DNA of 28,042 nt from a virus. The translations under genes were made by a program, and so were the position numbers. The number at the start of each line of letters is the position of its first letter. Position 1 is the stretch's first letter. The DNA lies in IMG/VR virus record IMGVR_UViG_3300023284_000975, positions 1-28,042 of that record, one strand, 5' to 3'. Positions 2,737-17,693 of the stretch are shown piece by piece. Under the pieces are notes generated by a model that saw only the letters and a list, made by a program, of their open reading frames with translations, made no database searches and was not told where the DNA came from.

Positions 2737-4500
2737 CTAGTCACAGGTTTTCTTGCCCGTCTTTAAATCGACGTAGCAAGCATCGCTTGAGTCCCCGACG
2801 TTCAGGATGCCGTACCTCTTCCCTTCAGGGTTAAAAGTCGTACACCCTTTTGCTCCTCCCCTCCAAGCAATGAGGTAAATCTCTCCGAAGTCCTCCCATT
2901 TCATCTTTGGGTTAACATTGCAGGTCTTACTCACCGCGCTGTCAACGTGTTTCGTCACGGCGAGGAGGGTTTTTAGATGATCCTGCACAGTGCACTTCGT
3001 GGCGACCTTTCCCTTCACCTTGAACACCCTGTAGCCGTAATCCAGTACTCTCTCTTTCCGTATCCCATCGAATTCTTGGATGTCTCTGGTGTAGGAATAG
3101 GAGAAGACGGGCTCTATCCCGGAGGATATGTTATCTGCAGCAAGGCTGATCGTTCCCGTTGGTGCAATGGAGGTTAGGTGGGAATTCCTGATCCCATAGA
3201 GCCGTATCATCTCCTGCACGAGCTTTGATCTCGTCTTTATAAAGTTTCCGGCGAGATATTTCTCTTTATCGAAGAGAGGAAAGGGGCCTTTCTCTCTTGC
3301 CAAATTGGTTGAGGCTATATAGCATCCCTCACATATCGCGTTCATTATTCTTTCTGTTAACTGTATAGCTCCCTTGGTCCCGTAGGGCTTACCGAGGGCT
3401 TCAATAGCATTGGCCAGTCCCGTTATCCCCAAACCCATTCGACGTTTCGATTTTGCCTCCACTTTTTGTTGAACAAGAGGATATGTTGCCACGTCAATTA
3501 TGTTGTCCATTGCTCGGACCACGACTTCAACGTCCTTCAAAAGTTGGTGCCAGTTGAAGTACCGTTTCTTTGATTTATCTGTCATTATGTACTTCACTAG
3601 GTTGAAGGAACCGAGAAGACATGCTCCGTATGGCGGGAGGGGCTGCTCTCCACAGGGATTTGTTGCAGCTATTGTTTCACAGTAGTAAAGGTTATTCATC
3701 TCGTTGACGCGATCGATGAAGATCACGCCGGGCTCGGCCCAATCCCAAGTGGACCGCATTATCATTTCCCAGAGATTCCGTGGGTCAATACGGCTGTGCA
3801 CTCGACCACCCCATTTGAGTTCAAAATCTGCCCCATTGATTACGGAGTGCATGAACTCGTCTGTGATAGCTATGGAGGTGTTGAAGCCTTTCAACTCCGT
3901 CGTGTTCTGCTTCGCGCGGATGTACTCTTCTATGTCAGGGCTATCTACACGGAGGACTGCCATCTGAGCGCCTCTACGATGCCCGGCGGAACTGACGGTG
4001 AGGCAGACGGCATTGAATATTTCCAGGAATGAGACCGGGCCGCTGGCGCCACTGTTCAACGTCTCTATGAGAGTTCCACGAGGACGAAGAGTGGAGAAAT
4101 CATAACCTATCCCTCCCCCCATCCGCATAGTCTGTGCGGCTTCAGCAGCCCTTGCCATAATACCACCCTCGGCGAAGAAATCCCCGTTCTCGATCCCTGC
4201 GACGAAGTTGTCCTGCAACGTCCCGGAGACAAAACAGTTGAAGGGAGTAATCCCTCGTGGAGAACCCACGGAGACTTGTGCTCGTCCGGCGAGAAGGAAG
4301 CGTTGGGCGAGGAGGATTTTCCGGAAGGTGTGGTAGTGTTCGGAGTTGTCGGCGAGAGCCGCGGCAATCCGGTTCATTCCCTCTGTGAAGGTCTCATTTT
4401 CGAGGAGATGTTTGGATTTTTGGATCTCTTGTGATACTCTGAGAGTTGGCCCCACTGGTTTTTCCTCATTCATTCGTGAGCTTTCCATCTTCTTCCTCAT
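2737..4500 (-). CDS. nrdJ: ribonucleotide reductase, class II (adenosylcobalamin-dependent)
   Basis: This 587-residue enzyme converts ribonucleotides to deoxyribonucleotides using a cobalamin-generated thiyl radical. Signs of the family are the N-terminal redox Cys in TPFNCFVSG (C89), the RMGGGIGYDFSTLRPRG segment, SAGHRRGAQ, the active-site NPCGEQ motif (N281, C283, E285) and SIAPTGTISLAADNISSGIEP near residue 450. Two cysteines near the C-terminus (C575 and C586) probably act as the shuttle pair. No small NrdB-type radical subunit is nearby, which agrees with class II. At 587 residues it is a compact single-chain form. The start overlaps the previous stop by ATGA; an internal ATG at codon 5 is an alternative. 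The phage would depend on host cobalamin. With ThyX and the dNMP kinase it makes a complete dNTP-supply set. Confidence 0.95.
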   Translation of the reverse strand: MRKKMESSRMNEEKPVGPTLRVSQEIQKSKHLLENETFTEGMNRIAAALADNSEHYHTFRKILLAQRFLLAGRAQVSVGSPRGITPFNCFVSGTLQDNFVAGIENGDFFAEGGIMARAAEAAQTMRMGGGIGYDFSTLRPRGTLIETLNSGASGPVSFLEIFNAVCLTVSSAGHRRGAQMAVLRVDSPDIEEYIRAKQNTTELKGFNTSIAITDEFMHSVINGADFELKWGGRVHSRIDPRNLWEMIMRSTWDWAEPGVIFIDRVNEMNNLYYCETIAATNPCGEQPLPPYGACLLGSFNLVKYIMTDKSKKRYFNWHQLLKDVEVVVRAMDNIIDVATYPLVQQKVEAKSKRRMGLGITGLANAIEALGKPYGTKGAIQLTERIMNAICEGCYIASTNLAREKGPFPLFDKEKYLAGNFIKTRSKLVQEMIRLYGIRNSHLTSIAPTGTISLAADNISSGIEPVFSYSYTRDIQEFDGIRKERVLDYGYRVFKVKGKVATKCTVQDHLKTLLAVTKHVDSAVSKTCNVNPKMKWEDFGEIYLIAWRGGAKGCTTFNPEGKRYGILNVGDSSDACYVDLKTGKKTCD

Positions 4501-5702
4501 TCTTTAGTAGCTTCAATTACAACTCTGTTCTCTACTTGCTTTTGTATTATCAAGTTGGCCCCTATTAACGATCGTAATATACGCTCGTAAGTATCGACGG
4601 TCATTACTTTAATGAAGTGTCTATAAAGGGTGGACTTCGTAAGGTTCTCTCCATTCTTCAGTCGGAGAAATTGCAGCACGTCTGCCGCTAATGTCATTTC
4701 AACTTCCTTATTCATCTGGCCGAAAACATGGGGCATGTCTGCTTCTAACTCAGTTATACGCTTGTTGGCAAGTTGTAACTCATCTGCTGTTATTACGAGA
4801 TCATTCTTAGTGGAGGCTGCAAGAACCATAGCGAGCTTATGAATATGGGTTTGTTTTCGGGCCAAGTAACCAGAGAACTTATCCCCAAGGAGTTCTTTAT
4901 TAGACCCTTCCTCATTGTGTCGTTCATACCAAGCAGTTCCCCACTCTATCGTATCAGGAGCAAGAGTGTAAGAGCCAACGAGGTTTGATATGACTTCAAG
5001 ATCATGGATTAAGGCGAGTTGTTTGTCTCGATGGTCTGGTGGTAAATGCAGGAAAGGATAGGCGACGAGTTTCCTCTTCTTCTCCGCGTACACGAAAATG
5101 GAACGAGAGGCCAAGCCTCCTCCATAGAAATAATCGGTGAAGTTTTCTGCAACCCAGGCCGGAGTCGTACAGCCTATAATGTTTATCCAAGGAGACTTAA
5201 TAACCTCTTCTCCATCCTTCTTCGTAATTTTCTTCCAGGCCCCAGGATCACCGTCCCACAGAGATGTAAGGACATCTATTAACTCTCTATTCCTGGGATC
5301 AAGGAAGGTTCCCAATTCAGATGCCACGATGGTTATTGCTGACATGTACATGGTCTCGTCGGTGTTGGGGAGGGGGATTTCTTCTCCAGACTTCGACATG
5401 ACTTGAACCAGCGCTTGCCATGTACTGGCTGCGGGGCCGAAATTAATGTAAGGAAGCTCACCGAGGAGTTTCATACCAATGGCTGCGGTCGTGGACTTTG
5501 ATACTATCCCTGCAGGAGAAACGAAGAAAATAAAGAAGTTAGGAGTCCATTCAAAGTAACCCATATGTAACCAGACCCGGCGGCGGAGTGCTCCTGCTAT
5601 AGCGCTGACGCCAGTCCAGAAGTGAAACCTCTCAGGGGCTTCAGAGTGTTGGGTGTATTCGAGGTATGCTTCTAGCCAGTTACTGATACATCGTTGTTCC
5701 AC
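4497..5702 (-). CDS. DUF3987-like primase/helicase-type ATPase
   Basis: The 401-residue protein begins at GTG 5702 with GAGGGG 5 nt upstream, inside the end of the polymerase gene. The N-terminus (NWLEAYLEYTQHSEAPERFHFWTG) and the P-loop-like segment VSPAGIVSKSTTA (about residues 61-73) resemble DUF3987-type phage proteins linked to primase/helicase functions. The Walker A is altered: the usual GKS/T reads SKS. A Walker B-like AITIVASELGTFLD (about 122-135) and a sensor-like INIIGCTTPAWVAENF (about 174-189) follow, and the C-terminus looks like a winged-helix DNA-binding domain. It lies between polymerase and ribonucleotide reductase and is probably the phage's replicative helicase or loader. 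That role is inferred from family and place. Overlaps are 23 nt upstream and ATGA downstream. Confidence 0.7.
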   Translation of the reverse strand: MEQRCISNWLEAYLEYTQHSEAPERFHFWTGVSAIAGALRRRVWLHMGYFEWTPNFFIFFVSPAGIVSKSTTAAIGMKLLGELPYINFGPAASTWQALVQVMSKSGEEIPLPNTDETMYMSAITIVASELGTFLDPRNRELIDVLTSLWDGDPGAWKKITKKDGEEVIKSPWINIIGCTTPAWVAENFTDYFYGGGLASRSIFVYAEKKRKLVAYPFLHLPPDHRDKQLALIHDLEVISNLVGSYTLAPDTIEWGTAWYERHNEEGSNKELLGDKFSGYLARKQTHIHKLAMVLAASTKNDLVITADELQLANKRITELEADMPHVFGQMNKEVEMTLAADVLQFLRLKNGENLTKSTLYRHFIKVMTVDTYERILRSLIGANLIIQKQVENRVVIEATKE

Positions 5703-6483
5703 TGTTGCCCCTCAACATTGCTGGTTTCCAAGTCCCTTCCGAAACCTCCATCTCCCAACAACCATTCATCTTCCTGTGGGGCTTAATATCCCCCCAGCTA
5801 ATTTCACTAACTGCGGTTGTTACGGGGATGGTTAGAGGGTCATCATATGGGACTGGGACTTCCATCTGTTCGATTATCTTGTCGAGGATTTCAGGATACG
5901 TTTCCATTGGTGCTTGCATTACGAGGGAGTCGTGGACTTGGAGGAGAAGTTGAACTTCGGGGAGGTTTGAGTCTATGTTGATCAGGCCTTGGTTGGTCAC
6001 GAGAGCTACTGTAGACTGTGGTATCCATGCTAGTGCTTGGTGGAGCGTTTCTGGGTTGAGTCTGTCAAAGAAAAATCTTCTAAAGCCGAATTTATTGCGG
6101 ATTGTACGAGTAGTTTCAAGGTCAAATTTAATTCGGGATTGCCAGATGGGGATTTTGGGGTGCGTGCCAAGCCAGCTATTAATGAATTGTTGTGCTTGTT
6201 GTGTAGTACCACCAATGTAGGTAGAGAGAGTGCGAGCGGAGACACCGTAGTTGACAGCATGGACGCCCTGTTTGGCCTGCTGGTAAGTACAGCCGATAGC
6301 TTTCGCATTCTCCTCATGAATATTGAGACCAGAGCGGAAGATATCCTTGAGCTCCTCGTCGTCAGCGTCCCAGGCCACGACTTGAGCGTCTGCGCGTTGG
6401 AGATCGGCATCTATGATTATGTATCCTGGGTCAGGGAGGAACATCCTCCTCAAATTCGGTAACTCTACTGTCGAGGCCACCAT
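5680..6483 (-). CDS. DNA polymerase I, C-terminal catalytic part (split gene)
   Basis: This 267-residue protein is the palm/fingers part of a family A DNA polymerase. It starts just before motif A (IIIDADLQRADAQ; D25 is the metal-binding Asp). It contains a motif B-like KQGVHAVNYGVSARTL (H75, Y79) and ends after motif C (LLQVHDSLV, H184-D185). Against E. coli Pol I, the K758 position reads His, F762 reads Tyr and the YG of motif B is missing. I recall the same pattern in other phage polymerases of this type. It is in the same reading frame as the N-terminal part upstream and is separated from it only by the HNH gene. ATG 6483 follows the HNH stop by one base, with no good ribosome site, so translation is probably coupled. 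Alone it lacks the thumb and exonuclease; activity would need association with the other half. Confidence 0.88.
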   Translation of the reverse strand: MVASTVELPNLRRMFLPDPGYIIIDADLQRADAQVVAWDADDEELKDIFRSGLNIHEENAKAIGCTYQQAKQGVHAVNYGVSARTLSTYIGGTTQQAQQFINSWLGTHPKIPIWQSRIKFDLETTRTIRNKFGFRRFFFDRLNPETLHQALAWIPQSTVALVTNQGLINIDSNLPEVQLLLQVHDSLVMQAPMETYPEILDKIIEQMEVPVPYDDPLTIPVTTAVSEISWGDIKPHRKMNGCWEMEVSEGTWKPAMLRGNSGTTMYQ

Positions 6484-6484
6484 T

Positions 6485-6994
6485 TTAATAGTCTCTTGGT
6501 ATACTAGGTTGTTGGTGCCCTCCAGAATAACTCCAGTGTTCTTTTCCTTTTATGTACGCTCCCTGTCTTTTATTTTCTGTTTTAATGTAATTGTACAAGG
6601 TACTTACGCTTACCTTCAAATATTGAGATATGTATTTAATGGAGCGCCCCTCGAAGCGCATTGCGTTTATTTGTTTTACAGCATCTGCAGTAATTTTCCT
6701 GTTAAAGCCCCCATCTCTTTGTCGTATAATCATGTCTCTTGTATTGTCTTTATGTGTTCCTAGAGTTAAATGGGAAGGTTCAAGGCATTCTGGAGTGTCA
6801 CAGGTATGTCTTATAATGAGATCTTTTGGAATGCTCCCGTTCAAAAGTTCCCAAAGGACTCTAGCTGCATGTCTGGTTTTTCCTTCATACCAGAATATGG
6901 GATACCCATCTTTATCTTTCCCACCTGTCCATTGAGTACATTCGGAGGAAGTTTCTACTACGTACTGCGCCATTCTATCTATAGTGTTCATCAT
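6485..6994 (-). CDS. HNH homing endonuclease inserted in the polymerase gene
   Basis: The 169-residue protein has an HNH_3-type nuclease core: RHAARVLWELLNG (H42), then IIRHTCDTPECLEPSHLTLG (H63, C65, C70, H75), and HKDNTRDMI with N84. After it, residues 100-137 (ITADAVKQINAM to STLYNYIK) form a helix-turn-helix that probably recognises DNA. Such enzymes cut an unoccupied allele and spread the gene by repair. The start ATG overlaps the TGA of the polymerase N-terminal part (GAATGATG), with GGAG upstream. The TAA stop is one base before the ATG of the C-terminal part. The insert is 510 nt, a multiple of three, and the ORF fills it completely, so no group I intron core can be present. Confidence 0.9.
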   Translation of the reverse strand: MMNTIDRMAQYVVETSSECTQWTGGKDKDGYPIFWYEGKTRHAARVLWELLNGSIPKDLIIRHTCDTPECLEPSHLTLGTHKDNTRDMIIRQRDGGFNRKITADAVKQINAMRFEGRSIKYISQYLKVSVSTLYNYIKTENKRQGAYIKGKEHWSYSGGHQQPSIPRDY

Positions 6995-8601
6995 TCTTTC
7001 TCCGTCCCGCGAGGTATGGTTTGTAAATTTCCTCCAGACCCAAATGCATCCTTTGAATACGAGAAACGATACGTGTTCGTCCCGCAGATATTAACCGATG
7101 ATCCTATCCTTTCATCATCTCGGAGAAGGGCGTCGGCGAAGTTTGACTTAAAGACTCGGATGGAGCGGTATTCCTCGACCTTTTCGAGAAGGGGTCGAAG
7201 GAGGCCATTTTCCCTTTTAATCTTTGTTATCGCTGCATCATTCATAGTGCGACCTTTGGTCTTCCGATCTCTTATTTCTTTAACTCCAAAGTCATCGTAA
7301 ATTAACGTCGTCATCTGTGGGTTAGAGTCGGGATTAAGGTCGTGTCCGAGAACTTCGTTGAACCACAATCGTCGGGAGTCTTTCGCTTCTTGTAATGACG
7401 TGGACAAACCGTCCTTGTATTTCTTATTAACCCTACAGCCGCGGAGCATCATTCTTAAGACTGGAGGAACTAACTTCATGAGAAAATTGTATTGCTCTCG
7501 TTGATCTAAATCATCTACTGCTTTATTTAAAGATGTGAAATCCTCAAAGGTGTAAGCGCAGTCATCGCAATTGTACGTCCAATGGGTATTAACATCATCG
7601 GTGACAGGGTTCCACTTCTTTCCTTCCTCTTTCCAAAATCGATAGTACACACAATGGAGGGAGGTTATAACTTCCAGGGCCTTGCGAAGCTCGGAGAAAC
7701 ATGTGTGGTGCATTATCATAATGTCGTCTGTGGTGTTTGGTAGATAACCCCAATCGTGAGCGAGGTACTGCATGTCGTAGAGGCAGTTCTGCCAAACCAC
7801 TCCGTTGGTTTTCATAACCTCCTTAATCTTCAGGACAATTGTGACCTCATCCTCCAAAGACCAGTAATTTGGATTGTCCTTTACGAATGAATTAAATGGA
7901 ATACAGATTACTTTATCTTTCGACGTGCCTATACCTATACAGTCTATTTGTCCTCCCCATGTCTCTGTATCTGCAACTATGGTCTGGTCCTTTATATCTC
8001 CGAGGAAATCCATAACAACGTCGAGACTAGGGGCAATAACGTACTCACGGTTTGGGTAACGGATTTCTGGAAATGCCGATTGCATCAAGCATCGTCGGAG
8101 ATCCTGTACTGCTAACCATCTCCAGGACCATTGGCGGGTGATGGCAGCGGGATTGAAAGTCGGGACGACTTTGACGTCATGAACGCCGTTAAGTATAGAA
8201 CCTCTCCATTTGGTGATGCCAATTTCACCACATAAGGCCCATAGAGGAGTGGCTCCGAGAGCGACAACAAGATTGGGCCGATGAAGCCCAATCTCTCTCC
8301 TAAGAGTTTCCCGACCAACAGAAACTGCGGTGTTAGGGTATTTTCCATTTATCCTTTCAACCCCAAAGCTCTTTGCGTCTTTAGCGGTGTAAAAGCAATT
8401 CTCAATCTTCCCATGAGGGGGGACGGCGTCGAGGACGTTGCACATGAATGTTTCATGGGGGAGGATGCCTACCTCCCCAAGCATCTTGCGAAGCTCCATC
8501 CCGGTGTAGCCGACGAAGGGCTTTTGCTGAGTCTTCTCATCCGGCCCGAGGGCTTCCCCTACGAGCCAGATCTTTGCGGATTGGGAGCCGGAAGAGATCA
8601 T
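6991..8601 (-). CDS. DNA polymerase I, N-terminal part: UDG-like and 3'-5' exonuclease domains (split gene)
   Basis: From ATG 8601 (ATGA overlap with the small zinc-protein gene) the product has 536 residues; a TTG at 8619 or GTG at 8616 would lengthen it slightly. Residues 1-175 resemble a family 4/5 uracil-DNA glycosylase: GEALGPDEKTQQKPFVGYTG, then NLVVALGATPLWAL. The usual HPA motif reads FNPAA, so the glycosylase is probably inactive. SPO1 polymerase has a comparable N-terminal domain. Residues 200-390 are a DEDDy exonuclease: VADTETWGG, QNCLYDMQYL and a YxxxD-type YNCDDCAYT. The rest is the polymerase thumb, up to GNLQTIPRGTEKE, where the reading frame meets TGA. The catalytic motifs A, B and C continue in the gene at 5680-6483. 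Confidence 0.9.
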   Translation of the reverse strand: MISSGSQSAKIWLVGEALGPDEKTQQKPFVGYTGMELRKMLGEVGILPHETFMCNVLDAVPPHGKIENCFYTAKDAKSFGVERINGKYPNTAVSVGRETLRREIGLHRPNLVVALGATPLWALCGEIGITKWRGSILNGVHDVKVVPTFNPAAITRQWSWRWLAVQDLRRCLMQSAFPEIRYPNREYVIAPSLDVVMDFLGDIKDQTIVADTETWGGQIDCIGIGTSKDKVICIPFNSFVKDNPNYWSLEDEVTIVLKIKEVMKTNGVVWQNCLYDMQYLAHDWGYLPNTTDDIMIMHHTCFSELRKALEVITSLHCVYYRFWKEEGKKWNPVTDDVNTHWTYNCDDCAYTFEDFTSLNKAVDDLDQREQYNFLMKLVPPVLRMMLRGCRVNKKYKDGLSTSLQEAKDSRRLWFNEVLGHDLNPDSNPQMTTLIYDDFGVKEIRDRKTKGRTMNDAAITKIKRENGLLRPLLEKVEEYRSIRVFKSNFADALLRDDERIGSSVNICGTNTYRFSYSKDAFGSGGNLQTIPRGTEKE

Positions 8602-8753
8602 GAATGGTTGCCCCACCAAGACCAGAATTTACTCCACCAGGATGCGGCTGTACAAATCATATGATGTGTTGGAGGGTTCCAGTCATCGATGAAAACTGAT
8701 CCACATTTTGGACAGGTTATTTTCTCTAAGGTTGGACTGCTACCCCAGGTCAT
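8598..8753 (-). CDS. 51-residue putative zinc-binding protein
   Basis: A short reading frame from ATG 8753 overlaps the preceding stop by ATGA and, at its end, overlaps the polymerase start ATG 8601 by ATGA. It encodes TCPKCGSVF followed by THHMIC, a CxxC plus HHxxxC arrangement able to hold one zinc, and a Trp-rich end (SWWSKFWSWWGNHS). Being coupled at both ends supports a real gene. It may act with the polymerase or its UDG-like domain, which is speculation. Confidence 0.6.
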   Translation of the reverse strand: MTWGSSPTLEKITCPKCGSVFIDDWNPPTHHMICTAASWWSKFWSWWGNHS

Positions 8754-9395: not shown

Positions 9396-9679
9396 TTCCT
9401 CCCCACGTAAGGTGATATCATTTTAAGGCCCTTCTCTTGAAGAGCAGTCAGATGTACCGCGTGATCCAATATTATGGCGGAGATTTCCAGTCCCCTAAGT
9501 CTCAGGGGTCGTTCAAGTATCCGTGGCCCCTCTATTCTCAAATCTTCTCGGTCGTGCTTCCTGGCTAGATATCTTGGTATGGCGAGTGTATCATTTACCC
9601 AGACAAACATTGCATTACGTGGAGCACCCAACATTTGTAGTGTGGTACGGCCTGAGCCTCGAGCGTCATCATCCATCAT
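9392..9679 (-). CDS. small P-loop NTPase-like protein
   Basis: The start is ATG 9679, which overlaps the stop of the ParB-methylase gene by ATGA (a second ATG follows at once). The longer open frame to 9826 runs inside that gene and is not used. The 95-residue product has a Walker A-like GSGRTT at residues 8-13, a short VFVWVND-type strand near 26-30 and a hydrophobic strand ending in Asp (EISAIILDHA), a Walker B candidate. I recall similar mini-NTPases in phages and prophages, of unknown function. It is co-transcribed with the methylase and nucleotidase. Confidence 0.6.
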   Translation of the reverse strand: MMDDDARGSGRTTLQMLGAPRNAMFVWVNDTLAIPRYLARKHDREDLRIEGPRILERPLRLRGLEISAIILDHAVHLTALQEKGLKMISPYVGRK

Positions 9680-10983
9680 TCCAATCCCCTTATCCTGCTC
9701 GCTGCGAGCCCTGCTCCATGCCTGTCCTTCTCTATCCCCCAAGCCACCACTTTCAGTGAATTCGCTGCGGGAAACACCGGTCCCGATCCACAACAAGGGT
9801 CGAGAACGTAGTCTCCTGGAAGGCAAGATTGGAGGATCAAGTGTCTATATAACTCCACCGGTTTGGTGGCCGCACGAGCAACGTCTCTAATATGCGGGGC
9901 AGTTACGATGCAGTCTGGATAGAGGGCAGTGACCCTTCTATTTCCCTTGTTAGCGAAGAGAATTGCCTCATACGTCCGTCTCGGTCCGTGGTTTGGTTTG
10001 GGGGCTATGCCGGAGGTACTTCCTCGGAACCAAATCAACGGGCGTTCCCATACGTCCCAACCTTCCTCTGAGACAAGTCTCTTCACAAGGGAAAAACGAT
10101 TAACGTCACAGAATATATAAAGGTGGGCCTTCTTCTCCGTTATTCTGAAACCTTCCTTCGCTATCGCCATCACTATCGCGTTTGAGATCTCGGGGGTGTC
10201 CTCGTAAGTATGGCGATCAGCAGATTGAGCGGCGAAGGTGTCTGCATTTACGCCGTAAGGTGGGTCTGCAATGATACAGGAGAACATTTCTTCATCCAAT
10301 TCAGGGAGATGTTTAAATAAATCCCCCTGGATGAGGTTGTGTGGAGTGGCTGTTTTCGACACGTCAAATTCTTTGGCGAGACTTTCCATATGCTCCCTAT
10401 TCAGTTTTTTCTCAATTATCTTAACCGCTTCCTCTCGAGATTTGGCTTTCATTACTTCTGGATCGTCGGAGTAAGTCGCGACAATGAGGTCTTTCTTTAC
10501 GTCCTCAATTGCAGTACTAAGTACTCTTTCTTTCCCACTTAACTCATCCAACTCCTCTGCTGTGTCAGACTTTGTTTGAACTTCTCCCCTCTCCTCAGCC
10601 TCCCGCGTTCTTATTTCATGAAGTTCTGCAACTGCCTCTGCCTTTTCTCTCCAAGTTAAATTAATGCGGCGAATGTTCTCGTCGAGTTCAGCTTCCTTGT
10701 ATTGATTGATGGTGAGGTCGGACAGGTTTACTATAGGAATTAAACCAGGGGCTACTGGAATTCCATTGTAGTTGAATTGGAAATTTTGTTCTTGGAGATT
10801 TTTTATAGCGTGGAGACGTTGTTCTCCTGCGACTAAAGTCCTTCCATCTACCTCAACGACTAGGGCGTGCATGAGGCCGAATGTGTATATTGACGCAGAG
10901 AGGTTTGCCTCCTTCTCCACGTCAAACCTTTTGCGAATTCGATCTTCCTTTATTATGATTTCCTCTAAAGGTACTAATTCCAT
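9676..10983 (-). CDS. ParB-domain / DNA methyltransferase fusion
   Basis: The 435-residue protein joins two domains. Residues 1-115 are a ParB/Sulfiredoxin-type domain, with IKEDRIRKRF and the AGEQRLHAI motif (52-60) in place of the usual GERR box. A charged helical linker follows (about 110-215). Residues 215-435 are an amino-methyltransferase with the catalytic DPPYG (240-244) before the AdoMet-binding DPCCGSGP (395-402), the beta-class order of N4-cytosine or N6-adenine methylases. No restriction enzyme is nearby, so it is an orphan that could protect phage DNA from host restriction or mark origins. The start has TTGGAG 8 nt upstream. A terminator-like hairpin separates it from the gene at 11046, so it may also be separately regulated. 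Confidence 0.88.
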   Translation of the reverse strand: MELVPLEEIIIKEDRIRKRFDVEKEANLSASIYTFGLMHALVVEVDGRTLVAGEQRLHAIKNLQEQNFQFNYNGIPVAPGLIPIVNLSDLTINQYKEAELDENIRRINLTWREKAEAVAELHEIRTREAEERGEVQTKSDTAEELDELSGKERVLSTAIEDVKKDLIVATYSDDPEVMKAKSREEAVKIIEKKLNREHMESLAKEFDVSKTATPHNLIQGDLFKHLPELDEEMFSCIIADPPYGVNADTFAAQSADRHTYEDTPEISNAIVMAIAKEGFRITEKKAHLYIFCDVNRFSLVKRLVSEEGWDVWERPLIWFRGSTSGIAPKPNHGPRRTYEAILFANKGNRRVTALYPDCIVTAPHIRDVARAATKPVELYRHLILQSCLPGDYVLDPCCGSGPVFPAANSLKVVAWGIEKDRHGAGLAASRIRGLE

Positions 10984-16268: not shown

Positions 16269-16607
16269 TTATCCCTCTATAGGAGTCCCCAAGGTTGCGT
16301 CGTATCGTCTTGACCCACCCGAATACCTCCCCCCAGAAACTGAGTGCGGGCCACTTAGGCACCACCATTCTTCCTCTAGCATCAATTCCAACGCGGCATC
16401 TATTGAGGTAGTGTACGGTAGTATCTGATGAGAATCCTCGGCTACATTGGCCCAGCATATAAAATCATCGCCTTCTGTCATCCAAGCCAATGAGTCAGCA
16501 TCATGAAAACTCTTTTCAATTACTTTATTGCAGAGACGAAAGATCTCTACATCAAACTCCCGGCTACCCTCCGTGGCATTCTCAAGCCGCTTTATGAGGT
16601 CAGTCAT
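16269..16607 (-). CDS. conserved phage protein, shortened by an in-frame stop
   Basis: ATG 16607 follows GGGAGG and overlaps the thyX stop by ATGA. The 112-residue product starts MTDLIKRLENATEGSREFD and later has PYTTSIDAALELM. These match the start (LIxRLExATEGSRELD) and middle (YTTSLDAALTL) of a small protein very common in alphaproteobacterial phages, as I recall it. It ends early at TLGTPIEG, and the family's expected C-terminal TPALALC segment continues in frame after the stop. Function is unknown. It could make a shortened protein, be decaying, or be read through. Confidence 0.65.
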   Translation of the reverse strand: MTDLIKRLENATEGSREFDVEIFRLCNKVIEKSFHDADSLAWMTEGDDFICWANVAEDSHQILPYTTSIDAALELMLEEEWWCLSGPHSVSGGRYSGGSRRYDATLGTPIEG

Positions 16608-17284
16608 GACGAAGCCTCCCAGGCCGAAACACAAACCGGAGCTACCGACTTTGCCAGTTCGTGCATAGCATCGGCATATACTCGTATCTCATATTGGGCG
16701 TGTTCATCACACCTCAATGTCATGAAGCGGAAGAGATTGAGGAGGTTGACTGTGGCGAACATGTGGGAGTAGGTGTTGAGGGGGAGGACACAACGGGCGA
16801 GTTCGCGGGGCCAGCCACTTTCCAACAAATATCTGTATGTTCCGAATGCACTTTCGCAGAACGATGTTAATTCTCTTATCTCATTTTCTCTCTTCTCGTC
16901 GAATTCTTTTCTGTCTAAGAACCTGCCCTGTTTGTTTACAGTATCTTGTTCCCCTACATACTTCACGTCTGGAACGTAGAACACCTCCGGCAACGGACGA
17001 TAACGGGCGGAGAGCTCATTATAACTCCACGTCCGGTGTCGGTGCCACTGACGGAAGACGAAGATAGGAGCGTGAACCTCGAAGGTGAAGGTAACGGCCT
17101 CAAATGGCGTGGTGTGTTTGTTCCGCCAGAGATAACGGATTAGTTTCCTATCCCCCTCTTCATCCTCCCCTGCCCTCCACGCAGCGTCGTATGACACTCG
17201 GGCCGCGCGGACGACGGAGAGGTCGCCGCCCATTGAGGAGACTAGACGGACGAAGCCGTGGTCGAGGACGTTTATCTTTTGCAT
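16604..17284 (-). CDS. thyX: flavin-dependent thymidylate synthase
   Basis: The 226-residue enzyme makes dTMP from dUMP with FAD, NADPH and methylene-tetrahydrofolate. The ThyX signature RHRxxSxNExSxRY appears as RHRTWSYNELSARYRPL (R82, H83, R84, S92). Other family features are VRAARVSYD, TTPFEAVTFTFEVHAPIFVF ahead of the signature, and the C-terminal LPLNTYSHMFATVNLLNLFRF plus RCDEHAQYEIR. ATG 17284 has AAAGGAA 8 nt upstream; the longer TTG-initiated frame to 17305 is unlikely. Together with class II reductase, kinase and nucleotidase it lets the phage control thymidylate supply. Confidence 0.95.
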   Translation of the reverse strand: MQKINVLDHGFVRLVSSMGGDLSVVRAARVSYDAAWRAGEDEEGDRKLIRYLWRNKHTTPFEAVTFTFEVHAPIFVFRQWHRHRTWSYNELSARYRPLPEVFYVPDVKYVGEQDTVNKQGRFLDRKEFDEKRENEIRELTSFCESAFGTYRYLLESGWPRELARCVLPLNTYSHMFATVNLLNLFRFMTLRCDEHAQYEIRVYADAMHELAKSVAPVCVSAWEASS

Positions 17285-17297
17285 GATTAGTCTTCCT

Positions 17298-17693
17298 TTA
17301 TTCAAGGGGCTCTTGCATCAATTCCTCAGCAATCCATAACATTGCGGCCATGACACTTCGGAACTTTATCGACTCACGTGGGAATGACCTGTGTGGGTCC
17401 CAGCGTTCGTCCAGGACAATGATGTTACCTGGCTCACCACGGATACAAAATGCTCGCTCGTTCTCACCATCACGAGCGCTCGTCGTCCCACCTGGGTGCA
17501 CAGTTAACCATGCGGATGCCGCTCCCGGCGTTTGTTTTGCGTGGACGTCCCAATGGTTCGGATTTCTGTAGTGCACAGAAAATCCGAGTGGGTGAAATGG
17601 CTGTGCTTGGTCGAAGAAATGCTTCTCAGCCTCTATTTTACACGTCCGCGTTACCGCGCCGTCGGTTTTTCCCTCTAGGGTCAATTTGGTCAT
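17298..17693 (-). CDS. hypothetical protein
   Basis: ATG 17693 follows GGAGGAAAT. The open frame extends further upstream but that part overlaps the zinc-protein gene. The 131-residue protein includes EKHFFDQAQPFHPLGFSVHY, WDVHAKQTPGAASAWLTVHPGG, FCIRGEPGNIIVLDERW, DPHRSFPRESIKF and a C-terminal helix (MAAMLWIAEELMQ). The Gly/His/Asp content could suggest a beta-rich enzyme, but I recognise no family. It ends 13 nt before the thyX start. Confidence 0.6.
   Translation of the reverse strand: MTKLTLEGKTDGAVTRTCKIEAEKHFFDQAQPFHPLGFSVHYRNPNHWDVHAKQTPGAASAWLTVHPGGTTSARDGENERAFCIRGEPGNIIVLDERWDPHRSFPRESIKFRSVMAAMLWIAEELMQEPLE

Follow-up and report, generated by a model that had tools for sequence, protein, structure and literature searches.

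Background

Split replicative polymerases have previously been known as isolated curiosities. Here we describe one in a 28,042-nucleotide (nt) stretch of viral DNA (IMG/VR record IMGVR_UViG_3300023284_000975, positions 1 to 28,042; the whole stretch is called the window below), in which a family A DNA polymerase is encoded by two minus-strand genes with a free-standing HNH endonuclease gene between them. A very similar layout is present in Vibrio phage vB_VspS_VS-ABTNL-3 (MF497422; PVS_29/28/27), where, as in the window, a gene for uracil-DNA glycosylase (UDG), exonuclease and thumb and a gene for palm and fingers are cut at the same loop (NLQNLPKGDG and a stop, then ...QLPNIKKLF) and are parted by one exactly fitting open reading frame (ORF), the three being deposited as an exonuclease/polymerase ORF, a 184-amino-acid ORF and a "DNA polymerase I" ORF. 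Unlike that of the window, this insert encodes an unknown protein of 184 amino acids (phrog_8380) and not an HNH protein; a literature search found no paper on the VS-ABTNL-3 split. The PolA of Methylophilales phages MEP401/402 is likewise a family A enzyme whose two ORFs flank a small one, for which its authors suspected an intron, but the cut lies some 10-15 residues further on, immediately before motif A, there is no UDG and the lineage is a different one (PMC10580990). The polymerase gamma-like ORF86/85 of Microcystis phage Mic1 is also of family A type and broken into two ORFs near motif A, but across a 298-base-pair gap that its authors termed an intron and for which no ORF is described (PMC7156551).

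Two genes (43A and 43B) also encode the replicative polymerase of the T4-like Aeromonas phages 25 and 44RR, and one of the two contains a homing endonuclease gene; the halves are active and purify together, and for phage 25 a review suspects that the endonuclease may have arrived after the gene had been split (PMC2988022). These polymerases, however, belong to family B and the endonuclease to the GIY-YIG (seg) type. A free-standing HNH gene, mobE, lies between the halves of nrdA in Aeromonas phage Aeh1, and these halves too form an active enzyme, but that enzyme is a ribonucleotide reductase and the insertion is taken as the cause of the split (PMC2988022). HNH genes interrupt the family A polymerase genes of SPO1, Bastille, phiL7 and Pf-WMP3 as well (PMC3428280), but these sit in spliced group I introns, for which the window has no match.

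Results and discussion

The split polymerase locus

Three minus-strand ORFs are packed stop on start, with no free space between them. The first, the N-terminal half of the polymerase (N-half; 6991..8619), runs from a TTG start at 8619 (or possibly an ATG at 8601) to a TGA at 6993-6991 and encodes 542 residues ending in GNLQTIPRGTEKE, with the tail NLQTIPRGTEKE. Its UDG, 3'-5' exonuclease and thumb were identified from Pfam matches (UDG 4e-16, DNA_pol_A 1e-9), the exonuclease motifs DTET, NCLYD and YNCDD, and a family profile aligned to Klenow. The C-terminal half (C-half; 5680..6483) encodes palm and fingers in 267 residues that start MVASTVELPNLRRMF, with the leader MVASTV; it matches DNA_pol_A at 1e-24 and has motifs A (DADLQRAD), B (AKQGVHAVNYG) and C (QVHDS), with the catalytic Asp of A and C and the Lys of B kept. 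The DNA_pol_A (PF00476) match is collinear over the halves, profile positions 11-136 falling in the N-half and 139-374 in the C-half. Between them, the HNH gene (6485..6994) encodes 169 amino acids with an HNH_3 domain (Pfam 8e-10; phrog_1872 1.6e-26) and a C-terminal helix-turn-helix. At the first junction (6991..7014) its ATG at 6994 overlaps the N-half TGA as GAATGATG, preceded by a Shine-Dalgarno (SD)-like GGAG inside the codons of the N-half tail IPRGTEKE (anti-SD duplex -6.6 kcal/mol), and at the second (6481..6500), with a weak AAGAGA upstream, its TAA lies one base from the C-half ATG at 6483. A promoter and terminator scan of 5600-8700 gave matches no more than chance.

An earlier note on this DNA had described a family A polymerase in UDG-exonuclease-thumb and palm halves with a free-standing HNH gene as the exact insert, and the ORFs, their stops and starts and the Pfam matches agree with that description. 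Without the insert, the loop from NLQTIP to LPNLRR would be 13 residues long, compared to 11, 12 and 18 in fused relatives, so that no segment of the polymerase is missing at the junction.

The split across the clade

Three profile scans of IMG/VR, after removal of duplicates, gave 121 sequences with both halves, window included (relatives are referred to here by L numbers). The polymerase is split at the same loop in 67 of these and fused in 54, and in nearly all split genomes the N-half ends a few residues past NLQNIP (typically IPKGDEE and a stop) and the C-half begins a few before LPN(I/V)RK. Among named phages, where no close DNA relatives of the window were found, tblastn identified fused relatives in Microcystis phage Mel-JY34 and phage ctMlz233 and one relative split at the same loop, the Vibrio phage VS-ABTNL-3; three contigs binned with bacterial genomes comprise two split forms and one fused. 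A single clade of split forms was rejected (approximately unbiased (AU) test, p 2e-68). Parsimony with equal costs gave 14 gains and 1 loss of the split, and with a gain costing twice a loss, 3 gains and 14 losses. One split form, L159, lies in a fused clade and has a gap of only 26 nt, while in L220 a fused form is nested among split ones. Judging by these sequences, the clade has probably seen both fission and fusion.

The earlier note had presented the window as a new case created by the HNH gene, a reading that is partly supported: the split is real in the window, but it is wider than a single case, being clade-wide and recurrent, and it was not new as such, since VS-ABTNL-3 had been deposited with the same split and family A splits lie nearby in MEP401 (PMC10580990) and Mic1 (PMC7156551). 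We replace it with a family A polymerase that was inherited as two genes and whose junction is open to passengers, and put a probability of roughly 0.73 on a heritable two-gene, two-chain enzyme of this kind, with an HNH homing-type gene among its passengers. What is new here is the clade-wide, recurrent split at one loop with interchangeable cargo; no paper describing the clade or a recurrent split was found in a literature search that excluded subscription papers. With the same loop cut in about half of the sampled clade and fused relatives serving as natural controls, the reassembly of an enzyme split beside its active site, the back-and-forth of gene fission and fusion, and selfish endonucleases as the cause or the colonisers of splits all become testable.

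Breaks elsewhere in the polymerase were also seen: in L006:4989-8393 (Kuura) and L008:1727-4364 (ctLwi270) the gene is fused at the loop that is cut in the window and broken after the exonuclease domain.

The two predicted chains

Both halves are under strong purifying selection: in closely related split pairs the ratio of nonsynonymous to synonymous substitution (dN/dS), where estimable, is 0.04-0.17 for either half. The catalytic residues and the exonuclease and polymerase motifs are conserved too. An AlphaFold2 model of the fused relative L001 (mean predicted local distance difference test (pLDDT) 93.6) matches the fold of Klenow, Bst and Taq with a template modelling (TM) score, by target, of about 0.8, and its sole low-confidence internal block is the split point itself, residues 551-561 (pLDDT 64), which is without secondary structure. 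A cut there would leave chain 1 with UDG, proofreading exonuclease, thumb and the NLQNIP motif, and chain 2 with the palm, the fingers and the catalytic motifs. Contact between the chains would most likely be non-covalent, running across the palm at the flexible loop that joins the NLQNIP motif to motif A. We infer chain association and polymerase activity, and so the two-chain enzyme that the earlier note had implied; precedents are the NrdA of Aeh1 and, in family B, the 43A/43B pair of phage 25, in both of which the halves are reported to form an active enzyme (PMC2988022). Coupling of translation, homing activity and a split that preceded the HNH gene in the window's own lineage are likewise put forward below as inferred.

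The SD in the N-half tail is stronger in split relatives (median -8.4 kcal/mol) than at the corresponding position of fused ones (-5.4; p 5e-6, without correction for relatedness). In 27 of 66 cases the following gene begins at the overlapping stop (-3), and in a further 12 it begins at 0. These stronger SDs, together with the starts at -3 or 0, support coupled reinitiation, and both chains would probably be made from one transcript by stop-start coupling of this kind, aided by the SD inside the N-half tail codons.

Genes between the halves and the HNH endonuclease

Gaps between the halves of split relatives range from -4 to 2899 nt, with 11 under 100 nt. A dUTPase-cluster gene (Pfam checked for one member) occupies the gap in 17 split relatives and a ribonucleotide reductase of up to 582 amino acids in three (L080, L190 and L230); other cargo comprises a DnaQ-type exonuclease, a Lon-type protease domain, a methyltransferase-like gene and small unknown ORFs. 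HNH-type genes were found in five of the 67 (the window, L013, L062, L224, by homology, and L071) and no endonuclease gene was detected at the junction in the other 62; the L071 gene is overlapped by a longer ORF and was recovered by tblastn, so small HNH genes elsewhere in the cargo list may be missed. The split junction, once formed, tolerates other genes, and its cargo is interchangeable. HNH-type genes were also seen directly 3' of the fused polymerase genes of L033:5614-6006, L049:5792-6046 and L149:4861-5103, as is expected of endonuclease genes located next to their target.

The HNH gene of the window is an ORF of its own, outside any intron or intein, with an intact HNH_3 motif that keeps the conserved His and Asn, and RHTCD...SHLxLGTxxDNxRD is conserved with L071. 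Its relatives in named phages are 30-39% identical among the matches listed, and a sequence search for a matching solved structure found none. A search of IMG/VR with the single sequence gave one weak match and with a two-sequence profile gave 35, the closest of which is the shorter HNH of L071 (50% identical), which lies in the same junction in a distant phage lineage. In L272:3304-6937 two HNH genes of the wider family to which the window's belongs lie between a related gene for UDG and exonuclease and one for the polymerase, giving a second split site where the exonuclease and polymerase domains meet. Since the closest relative lies in the same junction of L071 and the L272 pair lies at another split, homing to the polymerase junction is predicted, and the sequences suggest that such homing would be junction-specific. 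In the window's lineage the junction is occupied by a free-standing homing-type gene, which probably spreads to junctions lacking it.

Order of split and endonuclease

The window HNH most likely sits at a junction that was already split, a view that draws on three comparisons. First, L010, which lies nearest to the window on the palm tree, has a split polymerase with five other genes in the gap and no HNH. Second, an MVAxT leader before LPN is common to 11 split C-halves (the window and 10 others), so that the start of the window C-half looks inherited rather than being that of a fragment made by the HNH gene. Third, L062 and L063, whose DNA is about 88% identical, are both split, but L062 has a 146-amino-acid HNH-type ORF between its halves (PHROG matches to 3e-36) where the halves of L063 overlap by ATGA, which indicates that an endonuclease gene can come or go while the junction remains split. 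This pair may be read as comparative evidence in family A for a split followed by an endonuclease. Identity between the two drops to 75-80% in the 120 nt leading up to the junction and to 60% in the 60 nt that follow it, as co-conversion of the flanks would give, in one case and with an HNH-type gene that differs from the window's.

Several points weigh against the main reading, an inherited two-gene polymerase with a homing-type passenger in its junction. The grouping of window and L010 has support of 95 from the C-half alone and 85 from both halves and was not recovered on thumb plus palm; the shared MVAxT leader requires eight changes on the tree, so that the sequence of events may be blurred by recombination of C-halves; the window itself is a contig of 28 kb; and with HNH genes at the junction in only five of 67, homing there rests on few cases.

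The alternative, in which arrival of the HNH gene broke up a previously fused polymerase in the window's lineage (the route proposed for MobE in Aeh1 nrdA) and other relatives were split likewise with the endonuclease later lost or replaced, we consider unlikely. The AU rejection of a single split clade and the 14 equal-cost gains make a recurrent site-specific agent plausible, and HNH genes are present at the junction in five lineages and at the second split site in L272. However, the split is not confined to endonuclease-bearing genomes as it would be for a gene of the nrdA/mobE type: among the 66 other distinct split relatives only four have an HNH-type gene at the junction, L159 has become split inside a fused clade with hardly any gap, and the C-half leader of the window matches those of split relatives without HNH. 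The claim that HNH insertion caused the split in the window is, then, not supported. We tentatively raise, as a possibility that we hold with less than even confidence, that the loop is a repeatedly used docking site, which homing endonucleases cleave and enter, where they spread the split junction between lineages by co-conversion and are later lost or replaced by dUTPase, ribonucleotide reductase or DnaQ, leaving a two-subunit replicase that can be fused again.

Unlikely alternatives: dead gene, intron and read-through

The split, together with variant residues (Tyr at the E. coli R754 position and His at the F762 position), could be taken to mean that the polymerase is a dead, decaying gene, but this is very unlikely as all members of the clade share the His, the Tyr is found in fused and split forms alike, and selection maintains both halves in close split pairs.

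HNH ORFs are familiar from group I introns in the family A polymerase genes of phages, and that of phiL7, at site 676, is close to the window's loop (PMC3428280), which would fit an insert that is a group I or II intron whose mRNA is spliced to a fused polymerase. Rfam gave no intron match in the whole window at gathering thresholds or on 6300-7200 at E up to 10, the insert is entirely ORF, and at the same position relatives show gaps of 0 to 26 nt or several unrelated genes, making an intron highly improbable, in line with the earlier note's view that there was no group I intron. It had also discounted an intein, and we reject both intein and split intein: the N-half stops 6 residues after NLQTIP and the C-half begins 7 before LPN, leaving no room, and the HNH gene is in another frame.

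Production of a full-length polymerase by frameshift, read-through or ribosome bypass can be dismissed with similar firmness: the window halves do share one frame, and T4 gene 60 is a known bypass adjoining a MobA insertion, but two TGA codons follow one another and the insert holds 16 stops in the polymerase frame. The in-frame, multiple-of-three insert to which attention had been drawn is true of the window but carries no meaning, because the C-half is offset from the N-half by 0, 1 and 2 in 19, 19 and 18 of the 56 split relatives with gaps of at least 100 nt, the same-frame state being at chance level.

An unusual active site

Alignment to Klenow and Bst places His at E. coli PolI position 762 in 121 of 121 clade members, Arg at position 754 in 83 and Tyr in 38 (window included), and mostly Ser at the Glu883 position of motif C. 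The clade belongs to none of the Phe762, Tyr762 and Leu762 groups of phage PolA surveys, although the residue at 762 does not define family A, and its active site is unusual for the family, outside the Phe/Leu/Tyr scheme as far as aligned residues indicate. One PolA survey retained only sequences with Phe, Leu or Tyr at 762 (PMC9069017); having His there, this often split clade would escape such a filter.

Neighbouring genes

Two genes downstream of the C-half the window carries a reductase gene (2737-4500), and at 16604-17305 there is an ORF resembling flavin-dependent thymidylate synthase (RHRTWSYNELSARY), judged by eye only. A ParB-like N-terminal domain fused to an N6/N4 DNA methylase (Pfam) is encoded at 9676-10983, and methylase- or ParB-annotated genes are found upstream of the polymerase in several relatives.

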